Shown here: one piece after another, positions 19,639 through 32,318 of the stretch
How positions within the stretch are numbered: the first letter of the stretch is position 1
Layout of the letters: each line of letters opens with the position of its first letter
Assembly (NCBI RefSeq): GCF_014083985.1
Contig: NZ_CP046907.1
Span: 4,130,501 to 4,194,500, forward strand
Direction of reading: 5' to 3'
DNA: 64,000 bases
Source: Streptomyces sp. SCUT-3
Lineage (GTDB): Bacteria; Actinomycetota; Actinomycetes; Streptomycetales; Streptomycetaceae
The notes under the pieces: model-generated
Told to the model about the DNA's origin: nothing
Seen by the model: only the letters and a program-made list of their open reading frames with translations
The model's database searches: none
Translations under genes and position numbers: made by a program

Positions 19639-20157
19639 TCAGCGCGCCGGGGTCCGGGGACGCACTTCCTCCAGCAGGCCCGTCTCGAGGTGCAGCAGGA
19701 AGCCCCGCACCGACTCCTTGCGGGGGAGGAAAGGGCTGGAGAGGACGCGGTCGAGGGAGAGGCGGAGGTTCTCCGCGGCGTCGGTGAAGCTCTCCGGGGC
19801 CCAGGCGGGCCTGCTGCCGGCGTCCCGCTCGACGCCCTCGAGGAACTCCTCGTCGGTGAAGGTGGCCATGCCGCAGTCGGTGTGGTGGATCAGGACGACC
19901 TCCCGGGTGCCCAGAAGCCGCTGGCTGACGGCGAGGGAGCGCACGACGTCGTCGGTGACGATGCCGCCGGCGTTGCGGAAGACGTGCGAGTCGCCCTCGG
20001 ACAGGCCGAGGAGGCCGTAGACGTTCACCCGCGCGTCCATGCAGGTGACCACGGCGGTGCGCCGGGCCGGCGGCATGGGCAGCAGACCCTGGTGGGAGGC
20101 CGCGTAGAGGGCGTTGCGGGCCAGGTAGTCGTCGGTGGCGGTGGGCTGTTCGTGCAC
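19639..20157 (-). CDS. Beta-class carbonic anhydrase
   Basis: Zinc enzyme of 172 aa interconverting CO2 and bicarbonate. The ligands are visible: Cys39 and the Asp41/Arg43 dyad in TCMDARVN, and His92 and Cys95 in HHTDCGM, with GG-containing RNAGGIVTDD between. This is the short plant/bacterial-type form. It is the last gene of a three-gene minus-strand operon (HPP protein, flavin-fold oxidoreductase, carbonic anhydrase), starting 7 nt after its neighbour. Pairing with an HPP-family membrane protein hints at anion (bicarbonate or nitrite) handling. Confidence 0.93.
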   Translation of the reverse strand: MHEQPTATDDYLARNALYAASHQGLLPMPPARRTAVVTCMDARVNVYGLLGLSEGDSHVFRNAGGIVTDDVVRSLAVSQRLLGTREVVLIHHTDCGMATFTDEEFLEGVERDAGSRPAWAPESFTDAAENLRLSLDRVLSSPFLPRKESVRGFLLHLETGLLEEVRPRTPAR

Positions 20158-20164
20158 GGGGTGT

Positions 20165-20836
20165 TCACCGTTCCTGGGGAAGGGGGTGCGAGGGGGGTGC
20201 CGGGGACAGGAGGGGGTCGGCCTCCAGCCGCGCGCGCAGGGCGGCGTTCTCCTGCTCCAGCTGCTCCAGCCGCAGGCGCAGCGGGGCGACGGCCTCGTTG
20301 ACCTCTTCGACGCTGTAGCGGGGGAGGATGTGCTGGCGGCAGTTCCAGTCGAAGGCCTCGACAGCGATGACGATCACGCGCTCCGTCGGCACGCGGACCT
20401 CCTGCGGGTGCAGGCGCGCCACGAGGTCGCCCGCCTCGGAGGCGTCCACGGCCCGGGCCCGTCCGTAGATCTTCAGCCGCGCCTGCATCGGGTAGTCCAT
20501 GAGGAGCAGCGAGACGCGGTCGTCGTGGTCGAGGTTGCCGGTGGTGATGTACTGCCGGTTGCCGCGGTAGTCGGCGAAGGCCAGCGTGCCGGGGTCCAGG
20601 GCCTGCAGGAACCCCCGCGGCCCCCCGCGGTGCTGGACGTAGGGCCAGCCGGTCTCGCCGGTACTGGCCAGGTAGAAGCTGTCGCGCCCGGCGACGAATT
20701 CGAGTTCGCCGGGTCCGAGCCGGTCCGGCTCCGGGGGGCCCTGCTCCATGCGCGCGTAGCTGCTGCGGCTGCGGTGCGTCTCCTGGTGACGGCGGACGGC
20801 ATCGGTGAAGGCGACCTGGGCGTAGCGGTGAGTCAT
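20165..20836 (-). CDS. PNPOx-fold flavin-dependent oxidoreductase
   Basis: A 223-aa protein of the pyridoxamine-phosphate-oxidase-like split-barrel family (FMN or F420 users). Typical blocks: FYLASTGETGWPYVQHRGG, LAFADYRGNRQYITTGNL and VSLLLMDYPMQARLKIYGRA. The C-terminus carries a coiled coil (LRLRLEQLEQENAALRARLE). The substrate is not predictable. It lies between an HPP membrane protein (49 nt upstream) and carbonic anhydrase (7 nt downstream). A related fold recurs at 34443-35378 in another operon facing a CGNR regulator. Confidence 0.88.
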   Translation of the reverse strand: MTHRYAQVAFTDAVRRHQETHRSRSSYARMEQGPPEPDRLGPGELEFVAGRDSFYLASTGETGWPYVQHRGGPRGFLQALDPGTLAFADYRGNRQYITTGNLDHDDRVSLLLMDYPMQARLKIYGRARAVDASEAGDLVARLHPQEVRVPTERVIVIAVEAFDWNCRQHILPRYSVEEVNEAVAPLRLRLEQLEQENAALRARLEADPLLSPAPPSHPLPQER

Positions 20837-20885
20837 CGTGGTCCTCGCCGGAGGAGCGGCATGTGCGGTCGGCCGGGGTGCGGGT

Positions 20886-21467
20886 TCACCACCAGTAGGT
20901 GGGGTAGCGGGTGGCGCCGCGGACGCGCCCGACGGCGACCCCGACGGCGCACAGGAGCGCCGAGGCGGCGGCCAGCAGCCCCAGGAAGAGCAGCGGGTCG
21001 GGGGACTGGGCCACGACGATCACGGCGGTGGCCGCCGCGGGGGAGTGGGGCGTGCGGGCGAGCATCATCACGCCGAGGGCGAGACCGCCTGCCACGCCGG
21101 CGCCCCAGACGGAGCTCCCGGAGACGGCCAGGACGGCGAATCCGGTCAGGGCCGACAGCAGTTGGCCGCCGACGACGCTGCGGGGCTGGGCCAACGGCAG
21201 CGCGGGGGCGCCGAAGATCAGCGCGGAACTCGCCGCGAGCGGGGGGATCAGCCAGACCAGACCGGACCACTCGCCCAGGGCCACCAGCAGGACGAGCCCG
21301 ACGACGGAGCCCGCAGTGGCCAGGGCCACGGTGAGGGCGCGGGGGCGGGCGGGGGCCCGGCTGCTCAGCCGGCCGGAGGCGGGGCTCTCCCCGCCTCCGG
21401 CCGGGCCCGCGCCCGTGGCCGCCGGTGCCGCCGGCACGGCGGTGATGGTGCTCGGTGCTGCTGTCAC
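20886..21467 (-). CDS. HPP family integral membrane protein
   Basis: A 193-aa membrane protein. The N-terminal 50 residues are Ala/Pro/Gly-rich. About four membrane segments follow (ALTVALATAGSVVGLVLLV, LVWLIPPLAASSALIFG, GFAVLAVSG..., AVIVVAQSPDPLLFLGLL), with the HPP signature region FGAPALPLAQPRSVVGGQ and ARTPHSPA. Members of this family in plants and cyanobacteria transport nitrite; bacterial roles are mostly unknown. The GTG at 21467 is chosen because GGAGG lies 6 nt upstream. It is the first gene of the operon and faces the CGNR regulator across a short AT-rich region. Confidence 0.88.
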   Translation of the reverse strand: MTAAPSTITAVPAAPAATGAGPAGGGESPASGRLSSRAPARPRALTVALATAGSVVGLVLLVALGEWSGLVWLIPPLAASSALIFGAPALPLAQPRSVVGGQLLSALTGFAVLAVSGSSVWGAGVAGGLALGVMMLARTPHSPAAATAVIVVAQSPDPLLFLGLLAAASALLCAVGVAVGRVRGATRYPTYWW

Positions 21468-21489
21468 GGAAACCTCCGGGGTGCCGTCA

Positions 21490-22185
21490 GTGTTAACGGG
21501 TGAACCGCTTACTAATCCATTAGATGGGGAGTATGGCATTATCGATCGGAGGGCAACAAGCCGGTTCGAGGGAAAGGCGGCGGCCACGGAGAGGACCAGA
21601 GCGCCCGAACCTCCCCTGACCGGGGAGCCGTTGGCGCTGGACCTGGTGAACACCACGTTCGTCCGCGGCGGACTGCGCGGCGGCGTGGTCGACGCGCTGG
21701 CCGGCCCGCAGGACCTGGACCGGTGGCTGGAGGCGCACCGGGACGTCCTTCCGGACGGGCTCGCCCGGCGGGCGGTGGCGGTGACCGCGACCGAGCGCCA
21801 CGTGCGCGAGTTCCACCGGCTGCGCGATGCGCTGCGGGAACTGAGCCGGGCCTGCGTGACCGGGGAGCCCTACACCCGGGAGGCGGCCGGCGTGATCAAC
21901 GACGCGGTGCCGCTGGCGCTGTACTGGCACGAGCTCGGCCCGGCCTCGGAGGCCGGGCCGGTGGTGCGCTGGGCCGAACCGGACGGGCACCTCGCCGCTC
22001 TGGGCGCGGTCGCCGCCTCCGGGGTGGACCTGCTGACCGGCGAGCGGCGTCTCGACGTGCGGGCCTGCGCGGCCCCCGGCTGCATCCTGTACTTCGTCAA
22101 GAGCCATCCGCGCCGGGAGTGGTGCACGCCGGGCTGCGGCAACCGGGTGCGGGTGGCACGCCACCAGGGGCGCCTGCGGCCGTGA
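21490..22185 (+). CDS. CGNR zinc-finger (ABATE-domain) transcriptional regulator 1
   Basis: Putative stress-response regulator. The ABATE domain starts at PPLTGEPLALDLVNTTF and the C-terminus carries the CGNR zinc finger with four Cys (RACAAPGCILYF ... WCTPGCGNRVRVARH). It faces the HPP-flavoprotein-carbonic anhydrase operon. The start is unclear: the nearest canonical in-frame starts are GTG 21490 and 21481, but the sequence there is AT-rich, contains two TTA triplets and includes the CTAAT-CC-ATTAG palindrome, so it looks like promoter. A GGGGAG at 21526-21531 sits 6 nt before an in-frame ATT at 21538, which may be the real start. The gene itself is certain. Confidence 0.85.
   Translation: MLTGEPLTNPLDGEYGIIDRRATSRFEGKAAATERTRAPEPPLTGEPLALDLVNTTFVRGGLRGGVVDALAGPQDLDRWLEAHRDVLPDGLARRAVAVTATERHVREFHRLRDALRELSRACVTGEPYTREAAGVINDAVPLALYWHELGPASEAGPVVRWAEPDGHLAALGAVAASGVDLLTGERRLDVRACAAPGCILYFVKSHPRREWCTPGCGNRVRVARHQGRLRP
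21512..21523. promoter_or_regulatory. Candidate operator, CTAAT-CC-ATTAG
   Basis: Perfect 5-bp arms around CC in the AT-rich gap between the HPP operon and CGNR regulator 1. A related element (AACCATTAG) is found at the promoter of CGNR regulator 2 and (CTAACCATTGA on the minus strand) in the CGNR regulator 3 gap. Confidence 0.45.
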
Positions 22186-22278: not shown

Positions 22279-23637
22279 TCAGCGCAGGGTGTTGGCGAAG
22301 ACGTAGTCGGCGACCTGGTAGCCCTGGGTCAGCGCCACGTCGTTGTCCATGCGGAAGTGGACGCCGGCGTACATGCGGCTGTCGGCCTTCTCCTGGGCGG
22401 CGGCGCTCAGGCTGGCGAAGCTGCGGGTGACGCCGACGGCCTGCGGGTCGTCGGTGGTGCCGGTGAAGCTGATGTCGTCACGGCCGTAGTAGTTCTGCAG
22501 CAGGCCCGCCCACGCGCCGGCGATGCCCGAGTGGCCCGAGGCGTAGGTGGGGAAGGACGGCGAGAAGTGGACGCCGGCCGGGGTGGAGGACAGCGGCTTC
22601 CAGTCCGGGTCGGCCACCGTCTTGTCGGTGTAGTCGGTGTCACCGAGCTTGATGGCGGTCTCCGGACGCCACAGGTTGGTGTGGTACTTCGACTCCCAGA
22701 CCGCGATGGCGGCGTCCGCCAGGGTGATGGACATCAGGGCCATCAGCTTGGAGTTCTCGTAAGAGCCGGCGGTGGGACGCAGCTTCTTCTGGATGATCAT
22801 CGTGTGCTCGTACTGCTGGCCGACCGGCTTGTAGGTGCCGTCGACGTCGTTGGCCCAGAAGCGCGCGATCTGGGTCTGGTCGGCGGTACGGGTCGTGGAG
22901 GTCGCGCCGCCGATGGCCTTGATCTCGTTGACCTGCGCGGCGTACTCGTCGCTGGCCAGCAGGTCCTGCATGGAGGAGAAGCCCAGGGGCACACCCGGGC
23001 GGAACTGCGAACCGCTCTGCAGGGACCAGGGCTTGACCTTGCCCCAGTTGGCACCGCCGGCGCTCGCGCCGGGGGTGGTCGGCCGCCAGTAGCCGGGCGC
23101 GTCGGTGCCGACGTAGGGCGTGGTGTCCGCCGAGCCGTCGTTGGTGCGGGCCGCGATGATGGCGTTGGCGACCTTGGTGCCCAGGTACTTGCCGAAGGAC
23201 CGGTCCGTGGTGTTGCCGCCGTCGGGCAGGGCCAGCGCCGTGGCGAGCTCGTCGTCGAAGTTCACCCCGGGGAAGGCGTTCGTGAGGGTGCGGTGGGCGG
23301 CGTAGTCGAGGCCGCTGTTCAGGGAGCCGTAGGCCTTGTACGCCTCGGGCGCCTTGGTCAGGTAGGGCTTGCCGGTGCCGTAGATGGAGTTGGCCACGTC
23401 GTACATGGCGGTGTTGAGCATCGCGCCGCCCCGGGTGAGCGGACCGGGGGTGCCGCCGAACTCGCGGTAGGCGTCGAGGAGCACGTCGTTCCAGTAGTAG
23501 ACGCGGTCGACCCTCTGCTGGGGCGGGCGGCTCTCCTCGGCGGCGGCGCCCGCGGGTGCGACCGTGGCCAGCGCCCCGACGGCCAGGCCGACCGCCAGGG
23601 TCTTGACCGCGGTACGGCGCGCAATGCTTCTGGACAT
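22279..23637 (-). CDS. Exported vanadium-dependent haloperoxidase / PAP2-family enzyme
   Basis: A 452-aa protein with a twin-arginine-like leader (IARRTAVKTLAVGLAVG). It has the three phosphate/vanadate-binding motifs of the PAP2-haloperoxidase superfamily: K-x6-RP in SKYHTNLWRPETA, the SGH motif in PTYASGHSG, and SR-x5-H-x3-D in SRMYAGVHFRMD, where the last His would bind vanadium. Length and motif spacing fit bacterial vanadium haloperoxidases rather than lipid phosphatases, which are shorter and membrane-embedded. It may halogenate organics or make hypohalite outside the cell. It lies downstream of CGNR regulator 2 in the same direction (gap 262 nt). Confidence 0.88.
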   Translation of the reverse strand: MSRSIARRTAVKTLAVGLAVGALATVAPAGAAAEESRPPQQRVDRVYYWNDVLLDAYREFGGTPGPLTRGGAMLNTAMYDVANSIYGTGKPYLTKAPEAYKAYGSLNSGLDYAAHRTLTNAFPGVNFDDELATALALPDGGNTTDRSFGKYLGTKVANAIIAARTNDGSADTTPYVGTDAPGYWRPTTPGASAGGANWGKVKPWSLQSGSQFRPGVPLGFSSMQDLLASDEYAAQVNEIKAIGGATSTTRTADQTQIARFWANDVDGTYKPVGQQYEHTMIIQKKLRPTAGSYENSKLMALMSITLADAAIAVWESKYHTNLWRPETAIKLGDTDYTDKTVADPDWKPLSSTPAGVHFSPSFPTYASGHSGIAGAWAGLLQNYYGRDDISFTGTTDDPQAVGVTRSFASLSAAAQEKADSRMYAGVHFRMDNDVALTQGYQVADYVFANTLR

Positions 23638-23899
23638 GCGGAAGTCCTCTCAATGGGTGGGACGACGGGCCTTCTCCCTGTGCGGCCACCCGCGGCGTTC
23701 CGCGGTGCCGGCCCTTCAGGAGGCCCGGTTGAGGACGCTAACGGTGCTCCGGGCGCCGTCCGGGCCGAGTGATCGATGCCAGTGATCGGCCGCCCTGATG
23801 GCCGGAACCGGAACCTCCGCACCCCCCGGACGAACATGATCCGTCTGTGAATTTTTTCTTCGCTCTCGCGGGACCCCGGGTGACCCGAGGGCCATTTCC

Positions 23900-24505
23900 T
23901 CACGTTCGGTCACCGGGGTGGCGCTCCCGATGGCGTGCCACCCGCGCCCGGTTGCCGCAGCCGTCCGAGCACCACACCCGGCGGGGGTGGTTGCGGGAGA
24001 AGAACAGCACGCACCCGGGGCCGCGGCAGATCCGCAGCAGGGCGCTGTGGTCCCCGGTCAGCAGGGCGACCAGGCTCCGGGCGATCTGGGCCCGGGCGTC
24101 GGTGGCGGTGTCCGTGGTGCGCAGGTGGGCGGCGCGGGGGGCGCTCTCGCCCTCCCAGGCCAGGACCGGCCAGGACCTGGAGAGGGCGCAGGCGCGGTTG
24201 ACCTGTGCAACGTCCCACGGGTCGGGCGCCGTACGGCCGATCCGCGCCGTGAGCAGCCGCCGGGTCGAGTCGCGCAGCATGCGGGTGTGCAGCAGCTGCT
24301 GTTCGCTGGCTCGGATCGGCACGTCCTCGGGGAAGGGGTGGGGGAACAGCCCCCGGCAGCGGCGCAGCCAAGCCTCCAGCGCGGCCGGCGAGGAGAGGCC
24401 CTCGACGAGGACGCCCCGGGAGGCGGAGAGGGTGTTGGCGAACTCGACGGGAAGCGGTTCGACGGGGGCGTGGTGATCACTTTGGGTGATCAAATGTTCC
24501 GTCAC
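23900..24505 (-). CDS. CGNR zinc-finger (ABATE-domain) transcriptional regulator 2
   Basis: A 201-aa paralogue of the CGNR regulators. The ABATE part starts EPLPVEFANTLSASRGVL and the C-terminus has the zinc finger RICRGPGCVLFF ... VWCSDGCGNRARVARH. AGGAG abuts the ATG at 24511 directly but is 6 nt from the in-frame GTG at 24505, so GTG is the better start. It precedes the haloperoxidase-like gene in the same direction. Confidence 0.9.
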   Translation of the reverse strand: MTEHLITQSDHHAPVEPLPVEFANTLSASRGVLVEGLSSPAALEAWLRRCRGLFPHPFPEDVPIRASEQQLLHTRMLRDSTRRLLTARIGRTAPDPWDVAQVNRACALSRSWPVLAWEGESAPRAAHLRTTDTATDARAQIARSLVALLTGDHSALLRICRGPGCVLFFSRNHPRRVWCSDGCGNRARVARHRERHPGDRT

Positions 24506-24514
24506 TGACATCTC

Positions 24515-24524
24515 CTAATGGTTG
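24515..24524 (-). promoter_or_regulatory. CGNR-type element AACCATTAG at CGNR regulator 2
   Basis: On the minus strand CAACCATTAG overlaps the ribosome-binding region of CGNR regulator 2. It matches the palindrome upstream of regulator 1 and the element upstream of regulator 3. Part of the match is the ribosome site itself, so the evidence is weaker here. Confidence 0.3.
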
Positions 24525-24774: not shown

Positions 24775-25779
24775 ATGGATTTTGCCGTCTATCAACTCAG
24801 AAGCTTTTGGGAAGTGGCCCGCACCGGGAGTCTGACGAAAAGCGCCAAGAACCTCGGGTACTCCCAGTCGAGCATTACCGCACACGTGAGGTCCCTGGAG
24901 TCGAGGGTGGGGGTTCCGCTTTTCTACCGCCTGCCGCACGGTGTTCGCCTCACCGCCGCCGGGGAAACGTTCCAGTCGTATGTGGGTAAGATATTCAACG
25001 TCATGGACGAGATGTCCACGGCGCTCAAGAACAACGGTGAGGCGACCGGCCGGGTGGTGGTCGGGGCGACCGCGCTCCTCATGGAGTACGAGATGGAGGG
25101 GCTGGTCCGCGAGTGCCGCTACCGCTACCCCCATGTCCAGGTCTCGTTAAAGGTGATGACCTCGAAGGATGTGGAGAAGGCCGTCGCCTCGGGGGGAGTG
25201 GACATCGGCCTCACCCTCGCCTGCGGCCAGGGTGAGGCCCCGGCGGGCGTGCTGCGGCAGGCCCTCTTCCCGGTGCCGTTCGTCCCGGTCGGTGCTCCGG
25301 GGATGCAGTCCGGACCGGCCCCCCGGACGGTGGAGCGGGTCCTGGTGGTGGACCCCGACTGCGCCTCGCAGGAGGTCCTGCTGCGGCACCTGGCCTCGGT
25401 GCAGGAGAGCGTGCCGTCCCTGATGGAGACCGGCTCCACCCGCAGCGCGCTCGGCCTGGCCGGGGCCGGCCTGGGGGTGGCCATGGTCCCCGAGGCGGCG
25501 GTCGACGGCGCCGCGGGCCCGGCCGGCCCGGTGGTGCTGGAGGACCTGCCCCGCGCCAGCGTGCACGTCCAGGCGCTGTGGTCGGGTGACGGATGGCTGT
25601 CTCCCGCGGTGTCGGCCTTCCTCGACCTGGCGCGCAGGGCCCGGGGCTCGCACGTCCGGCCGCCCCACGGCGAGCGCGGCGCGGCGGACGCGGCGGACGG
25701 CGCGGCGGACGCGGCGGACGCCGGGGCGGACGAGGGTGGACAGGGGGTCAGCGGGGCGGCGGCCCCGGTCATGGTCTGA
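24775..25779 (+). CDS. LysR-family regulator with TTA codon
   Basis: A 334-aa LysR-type regulator. The winged HTH is at the N-terminus (LRSFWEVARTGSLTKSAKN, SQSSITAHVRSLESRVG, LFYRLPHGVRLTAAGE). The effector domain follows (RVVVGATALLMEYEMEGLV onward). The C-terminal 40 residues are a low-complexity Ala/Asp repeat. Leu125 is encoded by TTA (25147-25149), so full expression should require the bldA tRNA. The ATG at 24775 follows GGGGGAG at 24762-24768. It lies upstream of, and in the same direction as, the cupin/B12-mutase operon, and an ATC-N9-GAT site stands between them, so it is the likely pathway regulator. Confidence 0.93.
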   Translation: MDFAVYQLRSFWEVARTGSLTKSAKNLGYSQSSITAHVRSLESRVGVPLFYRLPHGVRLTAAGETFQSYVGKIFNVMDEMSTALKNNGEATGRVVVGATALLMEYEMEGLVRECRYRYPHVQVSLKVMTSKDVEKAVASGGVDIGLTLACGQGEAPAGVLRQALFPVPFVPVGAPGMQSGPAPRTVERVLVVDPDCASQEVLLRHLASVQESVPSLMETGSTRSALGLAGAGLGVAMVPEAAVDGAAGPAGPVVLEDLPRASVHVQALWSGDGWLSPAVSAFLDLARRARGSHVRPPHGERGAADAADGAADAADAGADEGGQGVSGAAAPVMV

Positions 25780-25901
25780 CCCGGCCCGGTCGGGTTCGGG
25801 CATTTCCGTCGTGGTCCGACCCGTGCTGATACGGTCCGCACCGATCCGGCTGCCGCAGCGGCGCCGGGTGCGGAACCGAGGACGTGCTTTTCGCCGCCGC
25901 A

Positions 25902-25927
25902 GCCGGCCCCGTGTCACCGGGGCCGGC
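25902..25927 (+). terminator. Hairpin after lysR
   Basis: Perfect 10-bp inverted repeat (25902-25911 with 25918-25927), followed by a T-containing stretch. Confidence 0.65.
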
Positions 25928-25942
25928 TCCTGTTGTTCTCCA

Positions 25943-25975
25943 AGAATCCCCTGCCGCTTTGCGGAAGGGGATTCT
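25943..25975 (+). terminator. Second, AT-richer hairpin followed by a T-run
   Basis: Arms 25943-25951 and 25967-25975 (9 bp) enclose an inner CCGC/GCGG stem with a TTT loop; CCATTTT follows. It is a more classical terminator than others in the window. It separates lysR from the operon promoter region. Confidence 0.6.
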
Positions 25976-26015
25976 CCATTTTATCCGGGGCGTTTTGAAG
26001 GAACACCCGGAAAGG

Positions 26016-26036
26016 GGTATCGAAATCTTCGATACC
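26016..26036. promoter_or_regulatory. LysR-type operator (ATC-N9-GAT palindrome)
   Basis: Perfect 9-bp arms GGTATCGAA / TTCGATACC with a 3-nt spacer. The core is ATC-N9-GAT, the classical LysR box (T-N11-A with dyad symmetry). It lies about 240 nt after lysR and 160 nt before the cupin start. The rest of 25980-26190 is AT-rich and without a gene; a TAGCCT hexamer near 26089 may be the -10 box. Confidence 0.6.
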
Positions 26037-26194
26037 GGAAATCGATGAACTGCCGCGGGGGGATTTCTTTTCGGGCTAGCCTGGTATGCGATTGGTTTCT
26101 GCCGGGCCGGCCCGCGGTCTCCCCCGGGCTTTTCGTCCTTTTCCGGCGCTTCTTCGGGGGCGGCCTCCCGCCGATTCCCGTACGAGAGGAAGAA

Positions 26195-26617
26195 ATGTCT
26201 GACGTCGAATTCATACCCAACGTCTTCCGCAGTGGCTTCGAACTCACCGACCTCTCGTGGGTCCCCTGGAGCGAGCCGGGACGGGTCGGCGTCGAGCACC
26301 ATGTCCTGTGGGCGCCGGACGCCGAGCAGAACGAGGACTCCGTCGGGCTGCTGCTGCGCTTCCCGCCCGGCGCCCACGGCGACTTCCACGAGCACCTCGG
26401 CTACGAGCTGATGCTCGTCCTCGACGGCGTCCTCGACCACAGCGACGGCCCCTCGTACGCCAAGGGCGACCTGATCGTCGAGGCCCCGGGCACCCGCCAC
26501 CAGATGTCCAGCGCCACCGGCTGCACCGTGCTGGCCATCCGCACCCGCCCCGCCGCCGCGCGCACCCCCGACCGACCCATCCGGCCCGTCGGCGACGCGG
26601 TCCCCGCGCAGGCCTGA
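26195..26617 (+). CDS. ChrR-like cupin protein
   Basis: A 140-aa single-domain cupin. The metal-binding motif is visible as FPPGAHGDFHEHLGYELMLV (two His and a Glu) and the second motif as GTRHQMSSATGC (His). The domain resembles the cupin part of anti-sigma factor ChrR, but no zinc-binding anti-sigma domain is present, so an enzyme or small-molecule binding role is likely. AGAGGA lies just before the ATG at 26195. It is the first gene after the LysR box; the next gene begins 115 nt downstream. Confidence 0.85.
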   Translation: MSDVEFIPNVFRSGFELTDLSWVPWSEPGRVGVEHHVLWAPDAEQNEDSVGLLLRFPPGAHGDFHEHLGYELMLVLDGVLDHSDGPSYAKGDLIVEAPGTRHQMSSATGCTVLAIRTRPAAARTPDRPIRPVGDAVPAQA

Positions 26618-26732: not shown

Positions 26733-27230
26733 ATGTCCGCTGCACCAGCAGTGATCGCTCCCGAACCACTGCCCAGCACCACCGGCCGCCGCCGGGTGCT
26801 GGTCTCCAGCGTCTCCTCGGACTCCCACACCTGGAACCTGGTCTTCCTCCAGCTGCTGCTCGAGGAACTCGGCCACACCGTCACCAACATCGGTGCCTGC
26901 GTCCCCGACGACCTCCTGATCGCCGAGTGCCGCCGACACCGCCCCGACATGGTGGTCATCAGCAGCGTCAACGGTCACGGGTACCTCGACGGGCGCCGTC
27001 TCATCGCCCGCCTGCGCGCCGAGCCCGACCTGGCCGGGATCCCGGTGGTCATCGGCGGCAAGCTCGGCACCCGCGGCGCCGAAGGCGGAAGCCACGCCTC
27101 CGAACTGGTCGAGGCCGGCTTCGACGCCGTCTTCGAGGACTCCGCCGGCATCGGCGAGTTCCGCCGCTACCTCGCCGCGCCGCAGACCCCGGCCCTGCAC
27201 CACGACACCCCGCCGGTGCCGGTCCCGTGA
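26733..27230 (+). CDS. Cobalamin-binding subunit of a glutamate-mutase-type enzyme
   Basis: A 165-aa B12-binding Rossmann protein, homologous to the S/sigma subunit of glutamate (methylaspartate) mutase. The base-off/His-on signature is D30-S-H32-T-W-N35; His32 would be the lower axial ligand of cobalt, but the usual Gly at the last position is Asn. Other family blocks are VVISSVNGHG and VVIGGKLGTRGAEGG. The first 20 residues are a variable Pro/Ala extension. The stop overlaps the large subunit start as GTGA, as expected for a heterotetrameric enzyme. No cobalamin riboswitch is visible upstream. Confidence 0.9.
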   Translation: MSAAPAVIAPEPLPSTTGRRRVLVSSVSSDSHTWNLVFLQLLLEELGHTVTNIGACVPDDLLIAECRRHRPDMVVISSVNGHGYLDGRRLIARLRAEPDLAGIPVVIGGKLGTRGAEGGSHASELVEAGFDAVFEDSAGIGEFRRYLAAPQTPALHHDTPPVPVP

Positions 27231-28546
27231 GCGCCGCCGGACTCCCGCAGCCCCGGCCCGCCGGCTCGTTCGCCGACGCGGTCGCCCGTGCCCGTGCCGC
27301 GGGGGAGTTGCTCGTCCAGCCCCGCATGGGGTTCCCCACGGTGGAGCAGATGGGCGCCGGCCTCAGGGCCGTCCACGACGCGCGGGCCCGCACCGTGGGC
27401 ACCATCACCCTGGACAGCTACACCAGGGTCGGCGACCACGGCTCCGCCAGGCGTGCCCTGCAGGCGGGCGAGGACCTCAACGGCTTCCCCATCGTCGCCC
27501 ACGGCGGACAGGTCACCCGGCGGATGATCGACGACGCCGGGACCGGCGGCTTCGCCGTCCAGGTGCGCCACGGCTCCCCGCTGCCCCTGGGCATCGTCCA
27601 GGCCCTGGTCGACGCCGGACTGGACGCCACCGAGGGCGGACCGGTCTCCTACTGCCTGCCCTACAGCCGCACCCCGCTGACCGAGGCCGTCGACGCCTGG
27701 GCGCGCAGCTGCGAACTGCTGGCCGAACAGGTCCCCGGGGCACACCTGGAGAGCTTCGGCGGCTGCATGCTCGGGCAGCTGTGCCCGCCGAGCCTGCTGG
27801 TCGCCCTCTCCGTGCTCGAGGGGCTGTTCTTCCGCCGGCACGGGCTGCACAGCATCTCGCTCAGCTACGCCCAGCAGACCAGTTTCCCCCAGGACGTCGC
27901 CGCCCTGGCCGCCCTGCGGCGGCTGTCGGGGGAGTACCTGGAGGGCGCCGACTGGCACGTGGTGCTCTACACCTACATGGGCGTCTTCCCCCGCAGTGTC
28001 CCGGGGGCCCTGGCCCTGCTGCGCGACAGCGCGCGGCTGGCCGCCGTCACCGGCACCGAGCGCCTCATCGTCAAGACACCCGCCGAGGCCCACCGCATCC
28101 CCACGGTCGAGGACAACGTCCGGGCCCTGGAGGAGGCCGCCGCGGCGGCCCGCGACGCGGCCTTCACCGAGGCGGACCTGCCCGACGACGGCGAGGCGGA
28201 CGACCTCTACCGCGAGGCGCGCGACCTGATCGAGGCCACCCTGGAGCTGAACGGCGACGTGGGCCGGGCCCTGACGGCCGCGTTCGCCCGGGGCCACCTC
28301 GACGTCCCCTACTGCCTGCACGCCGACAACGCCCAGCGCACCCGCAGCCACATCGACCGGCGCGGGCGGCTGCAGTGGACGTCCGCCGGCCGCATGCCCG
28401 TCCGGGCCGCGGCCGACCGCGGAACCGGGGCGGTCGGGGCCGAGGAACTGCTCGGCATGCTCTCGCACGTCCAGAACACCTTCGACCGTGCCGCCCTCGA
28501 GCCCTCCGCGCAGTCGAGTCCTGCTCTGCGCGCAGGCCACGCCTGA
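27227..28546 (+). CDS. Catalytic (epsilon-type) subunit of glutamate/methylaspartate mutase
   Basis: A 439-aa TIM-barrel subunit. In known members it rearranges L-glutamate to (2S,3S)-3-methylaspartate with adenosylcobalamin. Substrate-binding positions seen in the clostridial enzyme appear kept: Arg67 in TLDSYTRVG, Arg98/99 after NGFPIVAHGG, Arg114 in VQVRHGSP, and Glu136 with Tyr142/146 in TEGGPVSYCLPY. Length is somewhat shorter than GlmE of clostridia. The GTG overlaps the small subunit stop. In actinobacteria such mutases usually supply methylaspartate-derived building blocks to natural products rather than fermenting glutamate. No MutL-type reactivase gene is present. Confidence 0.9.
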   Translation: MSAAGLPQPRPAGSFADAVARARAAGELLVQPRMGFPTVEQMGAGLRAVHDARARTVGTITLDSYTRVGDHGSARRALQAGEDLNGFPIVAHGGQVTRRMIDDAGTGGFAVQVRHGSPLPLGIVQALVDAGLDATEGGPVSYCLPYSRTPLTEAVDAWARSCELLAEQVPGAHLESFGGCMLGQLCPPSLLVALSVLEGLFFRRHGLHSISLSYAQQTSFPQDVAALAALRRLSGEYLEGADWHVVLYTYMGVFPRSVPGALALLRDSARLAAVTGTERLIVKTPAEAHRIPTVEDNVRALEEAAAAARDAAFTEADLPDDGEADDLYREARDLIEATLELNGDVGRALTAAFARGHLDVPYCLHADNAQRTRSHIDRRGRLQWTSAGRMPVRAAADRGTGAVGAEELLGMLSHVQNTFDRAALEPSAQSSPALRAGHA

Positions 28547-28569: not shown

Positions 28570-30573
28570 GTGAACGGATCCCAGGTTGATCCGCAGCCGC
28601 TCACCGTCGCCGTGATAGGCACCGGCCCCCGCGGACTGTCCGTTCTGGAGCGGCTCGCCGTCCGTCTGCGCGAACTCCCCGTGCCGCGGCGGCTGCGCGT
28701 CTACGCCGTCGATGCGGTCGAGGTCGGTGCGGGCCGCATCTGGCGCACCGACCAGCAGGACTGGTTCACCATGAACACCGTGGTCGGCCAGGTGACGATG
28801 TACTCCGGCGACCCGGACGGCGGCCCCGCCCGACCCGGTGCCGGCCCCAGCCTGGGGCAGTGGATCACCGAGCGCGCACGCACCCACGGCGAGGAGCCCC
28901 TGGGGCCCAACGACTACGCCTCCCGCCTGCGCTACGGGCAGTACCTGCGCTCCTTCCACCGCACGATCGTCGAGAACCTCCCCGAGGGCACCGAGCTGGT
29001 CGAGGTGCGCGACCGGGTCACCGCGCTGCGCCCCCGCCCCGAGGGCGGCTACGAACTCGCCCTCGAGTCCGGGCCGGTGCCGCTGACCGCGGACAAGGTC
29101 GTCCTCACCACCGGCCACCCGCGCAACGAGCCCGACCGCTTCGAGCGCGAGATGCTCGACTTCGCCGCGGACCGCCCCGGGGTCCACTACCTGTGCGGCG
29201 ACTCGGCGGCCGACCTCGACCTGGGGCCCGACACCGTCCCGGCCGGCGCCACCGTGGGCATCCTCGGCATGGGCCTGTCGTTCTACGACGTGATGGTCGC
29301 GCTCACCCTCGGCCGCGGCGGTGCCTTCACCACCCTGCCCGACGGCACGCTGCGCTACGAACCCAGCGGCGCCGAGCCCCGCATCGTGGCGGGTTCGCGC
29401 AGCGGACTGCCGATCCCGGCCCGCGGGAGGAACCAGAAGGAGCCCCACCACAGCCACCGGGCCCTCTTCCTCACCACCCAGGCCGTCGAACTGGCCCGCA
29501 AGCGGCGGGAGGCGGAGACCGGCAGCAGCCGCCTCGACTTCGACGAGGACGTCCTGCCCCTGCTTCTGCAGGAGCTCGACCACGTCTACTGGACCGCGCA
29601 CGTCACCGCCCGCGACGGCAAAGAGGCCGGGGAGGAGTTCGCCCGGCGCCACGCCGACGCGCTGCTCACCGGCTGCGACAGCGACGCCCTGCTGCGGGAG
29701 GCCGGCCTCGACGCGCTGCCCGCCCTGGACCTCCAGCGCCTGGCACGCCCCTTCACCGGCCGGCACTTCCCCGACCCGCAGGCGTTCCGCGCCGAACTGC
29801 TGGACGTCATGCGGCAGGACCTGGCCGAGGCGGACCTGGGCAACAGCGCCGGGCCGCTCAAGGCCGCGCTGGACGTCCTGCGCGACATCCGCAACGTGGT
29901 CCGGGAGGCGGTCGACTACGGAGGGCTGCTCCCCGCCTCGCACCAGGACGCCTTCCTGCGCCGCTTCCTGCCCGTCAACGCGCTGCTGTCGGCCGGTCCT
30001 CCCCGGTACCGGGTCCGCCAGCTGGTGGCCCTCGTCGAGGCCGGGATCGTCGAGGTCGTCGGCCCGGCCGCCGTTTTCGGCACGGACGAGGACGAGGGCG
30101 CCTTCCGCATCGAGTCCCCGCAGGTGGAGGGCTCCGCGCGGACGGCCCGGGTGCTCGTCGACGCGCGCATTCCCACCCCGGACCTGGCCCGGGACACCTC
30201 GCCGCTGATGCGCGGGCTGCTCGCCGACGGCCTGGTCTCGGAGTACGTCGTCGAGGACGAGGTGCACGGCCAGCGGCGCGAGTCCGGCGGACTGGCCGTC
30301 ACCCGCGCCCCGTTCCACGTGCTGGACGCGGCCGGCCGGCCCCGCTCCGACCTGTACGCGCTGGGCATCCCGACCGAGCACACCCGGTGGTTCACCCAGG
30401 TGGGCAGCAGCCGCCCGGGCGTGCGCACCCTGTTCAGCCGGGACGCGGACGCCGTGGCGGCCGACCTGCTCGCCCCGCTCCCGCAGGACCTCCTCCCGCA
30501 GGAGCCCGCCCTCGACGCCGGACCGCTCGTCGGAGCGGCCGCGGGCGCCCTCGCCGCGGGGAGGACGGCATGA
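28570..30573 (+). CDS. FAD/NAD(P)-binding protein (NAD_binding_9 family)
   Basis: A 667-aa two-domain flavoprotein-like protein. A dinucleotide-binding fold begins at residue 13 (VAVIGTGPRGLSVLERL), with a second nucleotide fold around TVGILGMGLSFYDVMVAL. Conserved WFTMNTVVGQVTMYSG and a C-terminal GIPTEHTRWFTQ-like block fit this poorly characterised family, members of which occur in natural-product clusters. It may oxidise a product of the mutase/ligase pathway. The GTG start has GAGG 5 nt upstream; the gap to the mutase gene is 23 nt. The stop overlaps the ligase start (ATGA). Confidence 0.82.
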   Translation: MNGSQVDPQPLTVAVIGTGPRGLSVLERLAVRLRELPVPRRLRVYAVDAVEVGAGRIWRTDQQDWFTMNTVVGQVTMYSGDPDGGPARPGAGPSLGQWITERARTHGEEPLGPNDYASRLRYGQYLRSFHRTIVENLPEGTELVEVRDRVTALRPRPEGGYELALESGPVPLTADKVVLTTGHPRNEPDRFEREMLDFAADRPGVHYLCGDSAADLDLGPDTVPAGATVGILGMGLSFYDVMVALTLGRGGAFTTLPDGTLRYEPSGAEPRIVAGSRSGLPIPARGRNQKEPHHSHRALFLTTQAVELARKRREAETGSSRLDFDEDVLPLLLQELDHVYWTAHVTARDGKEAGEEFARRHADALLTGCDSDALLREAGLDALPALDLQRLARPFTGRHFPDPQAFRAELLDVMRQDLAEADLGNSAGPLKAALDVLRDIRNVVREAVDYGGLLPASHQDAFLRRFLPVNALLSAGPPRYRVRQLVALVEAGIVEVVGPAAVFGTDEDEGAFRIESPQVEGSARTARVLVDARIPTPDLARDTSPLMRGLLADGLVSEYVVEDEVHGQRRESGGLAVTRAPFHVLDAAGRPRSDLYALGIPTEHTRWFTQVGSSRPGVRTLFSRDADAVAADLLAPLPQDLLPQEPALDAGPLVGAAAGALAAGRTA

Positions 30574-32318
30574 CCTTCGGCGAGTCCGGACTCCTGTTCC
30601 GGCAGGCCCGCGACACCCTCCTGCGCCACCGGGAGGACCTGGAGGCCGCGCGCCGGGAGTTCACCTGGCCCCGGCCGAAGACCTTCAACTGGGCCCTGGA
30701 CTGGTTCGACCCGATGGCCCGCGGCAACCACCGCACCGCGCTGCGGGTGGTCGGCGAGGGGGCGGACACCGAGCTGACCTTCTCCCAGGTCTCCCGGCGC
30801 TCCGACCGGGTGGCCAACTGGCTGCGCGGCCACGGGGTGCGCCGCGGCGACCCGGTGCTGGTGGTCCTGGACAACCGGCCCGCCCTGTGGGAGACCGTGC
30901 TCGCCGCGATCAAGCTCGGCGCGGTCGTGGTCCCCACGTACAGCACGGCCACGCCGGCCGAACTCGCCGACCGCCTGACCCGCGCGCGGGTCCGCCACGT
31001 CGTGGCCGAGGCGTCCCTCGCCCCGCGCTTCGAGGGCCTTCCGGGCCGGTGGAGCAGGATCGCCGTGGGCGGTGCGCCGCAGGGGTGGAGCGACTACCGG
31101 GACGCCTCGGCCGCGCCGGCCGACTTCCGCCCCGACGCCGACACCCCGGCCACGGACCCCCTGTTCTGCTACTTCACCTCGGGCACGACGTCGCTGCCGA
31201 AGATGGTGGTCCACACCCACCTGAGCTACCCGGTCGGCCACCTGTCCGGCATGTACTGGAACGGACTGCGTCCCGGGGACGTCCACCTCAACATCTCCGC
31301 CCCCGGGTGGGCGAAGCACGCCTGGAGCTCGTTCTTCGTCCCCTGGAACGCCGAGGCGCAGATCGTCGCCCTGCCGGCCGAGCGCTCCGCCCCGCAGCAC
31401 GTGCTGGAGGTGCTGGCGAGCCGGGGAGTGACCACGTTCTGCGCGCCCCCCAGCGTGTGGCGCGCCCTCACGCGGCACGGCATCGGACCGCGGCCCCCCG
31501 AGCTGCGCGAGGCCACCAGCGCCGGCGAGCCCCTGGACCCGCAGGTCTTCGCCGAGGTCGCGGACGCCTGGGGGATCGAGATCAGGGACGGCTACGGCCA
31601 GACGGAGACGACCGGCCAGATCGGCACCCCGCCCGGGCGCCCGGTGGTGCCGGGGCGCATGGGCTGGGCGCTGCCCGGCTACCGGCCCGTCGTCCTGCAC
31701 CCCGAGACGCTGGCCCCGGTCCCGCCGGGAGAGGCGGGCGAGCTGTGCATCGACCTGTCCGACTCGCCCGCGGGAGTGATGGCCGGGTACGACGGCGACG
31801 AGCGGCGCACCGCGGCGGCCTTCGCGGGAGGCCACTACCACACCGGGGACCTCGTGGTCGCCGAGGAGGACGGCGGCTTCCGCTACCTGGGGCGGGCCGA
31901 CGACATGTTCAAGTCCTTCGACCACCGGATCTCCCCCCTGGAGCTCGAGCGGGTCCTGCTCGCCCACCCCGCGGTGGCCGACGCGGCGGTCGTGCCGCAC
32001 CCGCACCCGGTCGGGCAGTGGGTGGCCAAGGCGTTCGTCGTCCCCGCCGAGTCCCGCTCCGGGGACGGGGACACCGCGGCGGAGGTCTTCGACCACCTCG
32101 ACCGCGAACTGCCCCCGGAGAAGAGGGTGCACCTGATCACCTTCACGGACCGGCTGCCGCGCACCGTCTCCGGGAAGGTCCGCCGGGTCGAACTGCGCGA
32201 GCGCACCGGGACGGCGGACTTCCACCGCGACCGGCCCGCCGCGCCCGTCGAGCCCGTCGGGCCCGCAGCGTCGGCCGAGTCGGCAGTGTCGGCCGCGCCC
32301 GCCGCGGTGGCCCGGTGA
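30570..32318 (+). CDS. AMP-forming acyl-CoA synthetase/ligase (ANL superfamily)
   Basis: A 582-aa adenylate-forming enzyme. Motifs: P-loop FTSGTTSLPKM, A5 block GYGQTETTGQIG, A7 TGDLV, A8 region YLGRADDMFKSFDHRISPLE and the catalytic lysine in RTVSGKVRRVEL. It is closest in style to medium-chain acyl-CoA or benzoate-CoA synthetases rather than the stand-alone NRPS A-domains that activate methylaspartate in known macrolactam pathways. It would activate a carboxylic acid produced by this operon. The C-terminal 35 residues are an Ala/Pro tail. It overlaps both neighbours by 4 nt. Confidence 0.9.
   Translation: MTFGESGLLFRQARDTLLRHREDLEAARREFTWPRPKTFNWALDWFDPMARGNHRTALRVVGEGADTELTFSQVSRRSDRVANWLRGHGVRRGDPVLVVLDNRPALWETVLAAIKLGAVVVPTYSTATPAELADRLTRARVRHVVAEASLAPRFEGLPGRWSRIAVGGAPQGWSDYRDASAAPADFRPDADTPATDPLFCYFTSGTTSLPKMVVHTHLSYPVGHLSGMYWNGLRPGDVHLNISAPGWAKHAWSSFFVPWNAEAQIVALPAERSAPQHVLEVLASRGVTTFCAPPSVWRALTRHGIGPRPPELREATSAGEPLDPQVFAEVADAWGIEIRDGYGQTETTGQIGTPPGRPVVPGRMGWALPGYRPVVLHPETLAPVPPGEAGELCIDLSDSPAGVMAGYDGDERRTAAAFAGGHYHTGDLVVAEEDGGFRYLGRADDMFKSFDHRISPLELERVLLAHPAVADAAVVPHPHPVGQWVAKAFVVPAESRSGDGDTAAEVFDHLDRELPPEKRVHLITFTDRLPRTVSGKVRRVELRERTGTADFHRDRPAAPVEPVGPAASAESAVSAAPAAVAR

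Follow-up and report, generated by a model that had tools for sequence, protein, structure and literature searches.

LysR-type regulators have their recognition sites near −65 and their activation sites near −35 and −10 (PMC11602165). LysR-type operators such as that of AccR/accS (PMC11602165) share several features with the locus described here, i.e. a T-N11-A dyad near −63/−65, a downstream half-site and an adjacent regulator gene. In contrast to such operators, most of the loci studied here have lysR and its target reading in the same direction, the operator has no copy at the regulator's own promoter, and two separate target promoters lie in the cluster. ATC-N9-GAT has been described as a LysR-type motif (PMC10100970), and the rhizobial LysR-type boxes, as they are cited in that paper, have the identical core. 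Compared with those boxes, the host and the genes are different in our case, an extra ATC stands at N7, and a −10 element is placed at offset 58–60. The fourth gene of the operon encodes a clear homologue of the L-aspartate N-hydroxylase from Streptomyces sp. V2 (PDB 8cp2), a nitrosuccinate-forming enzyme (PMC10404684). Unlike the V2 gene, the one described here follows a glutamate-mutase-like pair, and for this reason the substrate of its product could be methylaspartate.

Elements of this class are familiar; the novelty lies in this particular member, in its regulon, and in the link from a haloperoxidase-like gene to a glutamate-mutase/N-hydroxylase-like operon. We propose, with a probability of about 0.87, that a palindrome upstream of a cupin gene in Streptomyces sp. 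SCUT-3 serves as the recognition half within a bipartite LysR-type operator, and that a cluster-specific regulator would act through this type of operator at two promoters, one driving the cupin operon and the other the haloperoxidase-like gene (Table 1). On this reading, a single palindrome becomes a defined two-promoter regulon with coordinates, and the haloperoxidase-like enzyme is placed with the glutamate-mutase-like and aspartate-N-hydroxylase-like operon.

Table 1. Features of the lysR–cupin locus, in window coordinates.
Feature	Position	Strand	Support
PAP2-family vanadium-haloperoxidase-like gene, second presumed target	22279..23637	−	Pfam PAP2
Predicted −10 element before the haloperoxidase-like gene, TAGCGT at offset 59	23735..23740	−	
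Third ATC half-site of the second operator	23775..23777	−	
Second operator dyad ATC-N9-GAT, upstream of the PAP2/haloperoxidase-like gene	23785..23799	−	
ABATE/CGNR zinc-finger gene	23900–24511	−	
LysR-type regulator gene, presumed binder	24775..25779	+	Pfam HTH_1 and LysR_substrate; orthologues adjoin the site
GC-rich hairpin after lysR	25901–25928	+	Terminator-like in scan
GC-rich hairpin after lysR	~25943–25976	+	Strong stem, then TTTTAT
Conserved dyad ATC-N9-GAT (LysR box, presumed recognition site)	26019..26033	+	ATC, CGAT and A invariant in 12/12 aligned orthologous promoters
Third ATC half-site, presumed part of the activation site	26041..26043	+	Invariant in 12 aligned promoters
Predicted −10 element TAGCCT, cupin operon	26077..26082	+	TAnnnT at offset 58–60 in 11/12 orthologous promoters
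Cupin gene (Cupin_7, ChrR-like), first gene of the operon	26195..26617	+	Pfam
B12-binding, methylaspartate (glutamate) mutase S-like gene	26733..27230	+	
Methylaspartate (glutamate) mutase E-like gene	27227..28546	+	
Gene for an FAD-dependent protein related to L-aspartate N-hydroxylase	28570..30573	+	PDB 8cp2, E 3.6e-110; PMC10404684
AMP-binding ligase gene	30573..32318	+	

The palindrome

The palindrome lies in a window of 64,000 nucleotides, the whole stretch of SCUT-3 DNA that was analysed. The sequence-only reading had described it as perfect, with 9-bp arms and ATC-N9-GAT, and as containing the T-N11-A core of a LysR box. Indeed, GGTATCGAA-ATC-TTCGATACC was found exactly at 26016–26036 (+), with T-N11-A present via ATC-N9-GAT (A of the ATC at 26019). 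That reading also called it the most symmetric short operator-like site of the window. Perfect 9-bp arms with a loop of up to 10 occur at 31 places in the GC-rich window, so that symmetry as such is not rare, but the palindrome is the only one of them with low-GC arms (one observed, against a mean of 0.05 in 20 shuffles), the others being GC-rich. The leader, which had been called AT-rich, has 64% G+C between 26036 and 26194 and is not AT-rich in absolute terms.

With up to three mismatches allowed, the palindrome still had no second copy, neither in the window (100 shuffles gave 0) nor anywhere else in the 6.08 Mb genome. The bare ATC-N9-GAT is common, with six occurrences on the plus strand of the window versus 4.3 expected, and it arises in 9% of shuffles of the lysR–cupin interval. 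It is therefore conservation, rather than agreement with the consensus, that carries the argument.

Conservation of the operator

Orthologous loci were gathered with the mutase E subunit, the cupin and LysR as queries, and non-redundant loci were taken as positive if a co-directional lysR (≥44% identity) stood just upstream of the cupin gene. Footprinting upstream of orthologous cupin genes, which had been proposed as a check, showed that the site is kept and tracks the presence of an adjacent lysR. ATC-N9-GAT-N7-ATC preceded the cupin gene in 12 of the 13 loci with a co-directional lysR (lysR identity 45–100%), and in none of the 16 loci without such a lysR. The comparison (Fisher p ≈ 2.5e-7, ignoring relatedness) is weakened because in about 12 of the 16 negative loci the cupin gene sits inside a longer operon, with no promoter of its own; the sharper controls are therefore L006, L010, L028 and L149.

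According to the alignment of the orthologous promoters, the conserved unit is ATC-N9-GAT-N7-ATC and not the 21-bp palindrome. Twelve alignment columns are invariant across the 12 promoters. Among them are ATC, CGATA and, 22 bp or roughly two helical turns downstream of the first ATC, the third one. On average, the majority fraction reaches 0.85 within the dyad and 0.92 within the third half-site, compared to 0.48 upstream and 0.55 in the spacer. Since the outer arms drift in the orthologues, the symmetry of the palindrome is partly particular to the SCUT-3 genome. As in LysR-type operators, T-N11-A lies inside an interrupted dyad, the presumed cognate LysR-type gene is adjacent, and there is an extra half-site downstream, for which we would assume a role in activation. 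As far as the sequences can tell, the operator is conserved at a fixed promoter distance in related Streptomyces-family bacteria.

Several loci depart from this scheme. The cupin promoter of L007 (LysR 68%) has no site, and a second-type site is kept elsewhere. In L143, where lysR is divergent, a strong site stands at the haloperoxidase-like gene but none at the cupin promoter. The cupin promoter of L145 carries the dyad and the third half-site, but not TAnnnT at the expected offset. Instead of the dyad, a direct repeat ATCGG-N17/18-ATCGG occurs in the cupin promoters of L010, L006 and L143, with the −10 at offset 60–61 from the first repeat (counted by hand). This arrangement looks like a variant of the same operator layout that has lost the inverted GAT.

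Promoter geometry and probable mode of regulation

The −10 offsets were counted from the A of the first ATC. Between the operator and the −10 element, the sequence of the spacer drifts, whereas its length is fixed. If the −10 element is taken to begin at −12, the centre of the dyad lies about −63 to −66 from the predicted transcription start, and on that predicted start the recognition site lies near −65, the position known for LysR-type operators. The −35 hexamer at the cupin promoter is neither good nor conserved, and a consensus sigma-70 scan called no promoter.

LysR binding, activation rather than repression, and tetramer formation are steps that we infer and do not read from the sequence. 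A LysR dimer would occupy ATC-N9-GAT, centred near −63/−65, and a second dimer would be guided by the third ATC, two helical turns downstream, toward the weakly defined −35 region. Binding of an effector, which is probably a pathway metabolite, would then switch the promoter on. The same LysR protein would act on the promoter of the haloperoxidase-like gene (23637, minus strand) via a weaker copy of the element.

Regulation of both targets is probably by activation, which is favoured because a conserved −35 is lacking and the geometry is that of a −65 site. It seems unlikely that LysR acts here as a repressor or a dual regulator instead. The sign of regulation is not legible in the sequence, and some LysR-type proteins do repress; nevertheless, the layout found here, with a site near −63/−65, a half-site downstream of it and no −35 hexamer that is good or conserved, is that of an activated promoter.

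A divergent regulator gene and autoregulation are common in the LysR-type family, though not obligatory. Here lysR is co-directional and the arrangement of a divergent gene autoregulated through a shared site was not found. None of 13 loci has an operator copy upstream of lysR itself, and thus there is no sign of autoregulation. The two hairpins at 25901..25976 probably end lysR transcription before the operator.

The second promoter and the extent of the proposed regulon

A weight matrix was built from the orthologues alone, with the window excluded. The palindrome scored 35.6, and a minus-strand site at 23770–23803 was among the next best. This second site is kept before the orthologous haloperoxidase-like gene in all nine loci that hold the gene and its upstream region, and TAnnnT stands at offset 59–60 in 15/15 second-promoter sites. 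In L004, only the end of the haloperoxidase-like gene is left, and there is no second site. The full pattern gave 45 matches in 1.37 Mb of retrieved DNA (redundant loci counted), all of them in lysR loci, at the cupin promoter or the second promoter; the reversed sequence of the same 1.37 Mb gave none. Within the SCUT-3 genome, the full architecture occurs at exactly two places, the cupin promoter and 23799–23735 (−).

The full pattern was also run genome-wide on nine lysR-carrying genomes and gave extra matches in four of them (G521, G602, G165 and G614). The one in G521 lies directly before a haloperoxidase-like gene (51% identity), 3.9 kb from the nearer site, and the one in G602 lies on a different contig, again directly before a haloperoxidase-like gene (26% identity). 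Both genes were predicted by the operator pattern alone, which means that the pattern can locate missing pathway genes away from the cluster. The extra matches in G165 and G614, which do not have the ATCGG form, are probably due to chance.

Operators of the second type without an adjacent haloperoxidase-like gene were seen at L016:2543 (−), L017:2322 (−) and L067:2647 (−). At L153:5249 (+), the lysR-side site stands ahead of a gene for a DoxX-like membrane protein, and the haloperoxidase-like gene is found 3.9 kb further along, under its own site.

We also considered a large regulon and rejected it. The sequence profile of the site gives one significant place in the SCUT-3 genome, and the weaker profile hits across 395 family genomes occur in about the number expected by chance at that cut-off. 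A weak hit of the profile upstream of the ABATE gene, at 24522 (−), has no ATC-N9-GAT core and was dropped.

Identity of the binder and the role of the symmetry

A class-wide search for the LysR protein at E ≤ 1e-45 returned only its own genome among 395. The main alternative to LysR as the binder is the ABATE/CGNR zinc-finger regulator, whose operator the element would then be. In almost every locus that bears the site, lysR has an ABATE1 homologue beside it, so that the association of loci does not by itself separate the two proteins as candidates. We nevertheless consider the ABATE/CGNR protein an improbable binder. In L143, 16 kb of sequence contain a strong site and LysR without any ABATE1 homologue (an ABATE2 homologue is present), whereas L028 has an ABATE1 homologue (58%), yet only a variant element with altered spacing. 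Moreover, the element fits the LysR-type motif and the −65 position of that family.

It is highly improbable that the palindrome serves as an RNA hairpin, i.e. the stem of a terminator, an attenuator or a riboregulator. The strand does fold into a 9-bp stem beside two other hairpins, but the three outermost pairs are broken in 7, 9 and 7 of 12 orthologues, and covariation of the pairs is no better than in shuffles. The palindrome is not followed by a T run, and it lies outside the cupin transcript because it is upstream of the conserved −10 element. With neither conserved pairing nor a T run, a hairpin or terminator was rejected. Chance symmetry without function, a thought that the 31 inverted repeats and the frequency of the bare core might invite, is contradicted by the footprint, by the constant spacing across 12 loci and by the second site in the genome, and is hardly credible.

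Presumed target genes and the putative pathway

The vanadate-site motifs of the chloroperoxidase family are K-x6-R, SGH and R-x5-H. The PAP2 protein encoded by the second presumed target matched the vanadium haloperoxidase 4cit (E 5e-32) and a chloroperoxidase (E 4e-13); its KYHTNLWR, SGH and RMYAGVH align to both, and all the vanadate-site motifs are kept. In the lysR-free loci L005, L009, L013 and L015, a distant haloperoxidase-like gene lies immediately before the cupin gene. These cupin-adjacent homologues also support the idea that the haloperoxidase-like enzyme and the cupin operon belong to one pathway.

The order of genes in the operon suggests that the product of 28570–30573 may catalyse N-oxidation of methylaspartate or a similar substrate. 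Among the papers searched, none dealt with a pathway joining glutamate mutase with a cupin/LysR pair or with a haloperoxidase, and a plasmid search with the cupin gave no close orthologue. A tentative proposal, which we regard as possible though short of probable, is that the LysR-type regulator ties the haloperoxidase-like enzyme, even where it is encoded elsewhere, to the glutamate-mutase-like/aspartate-N-hydroxylase-like operon in an undescribed pathway of Streptomycetaceae that would yield N-oxidised (methyl)aspartate-derived metabolites.

Beyond the haloperoxidase-like gene, the minus strand carries genes for β-carbonic anhydrase-like, PNPOx-like and HPP-family membrane proteins (19639–21656). 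An HPP-like gene is also present near the second site in L004, L007, L016 and L067.
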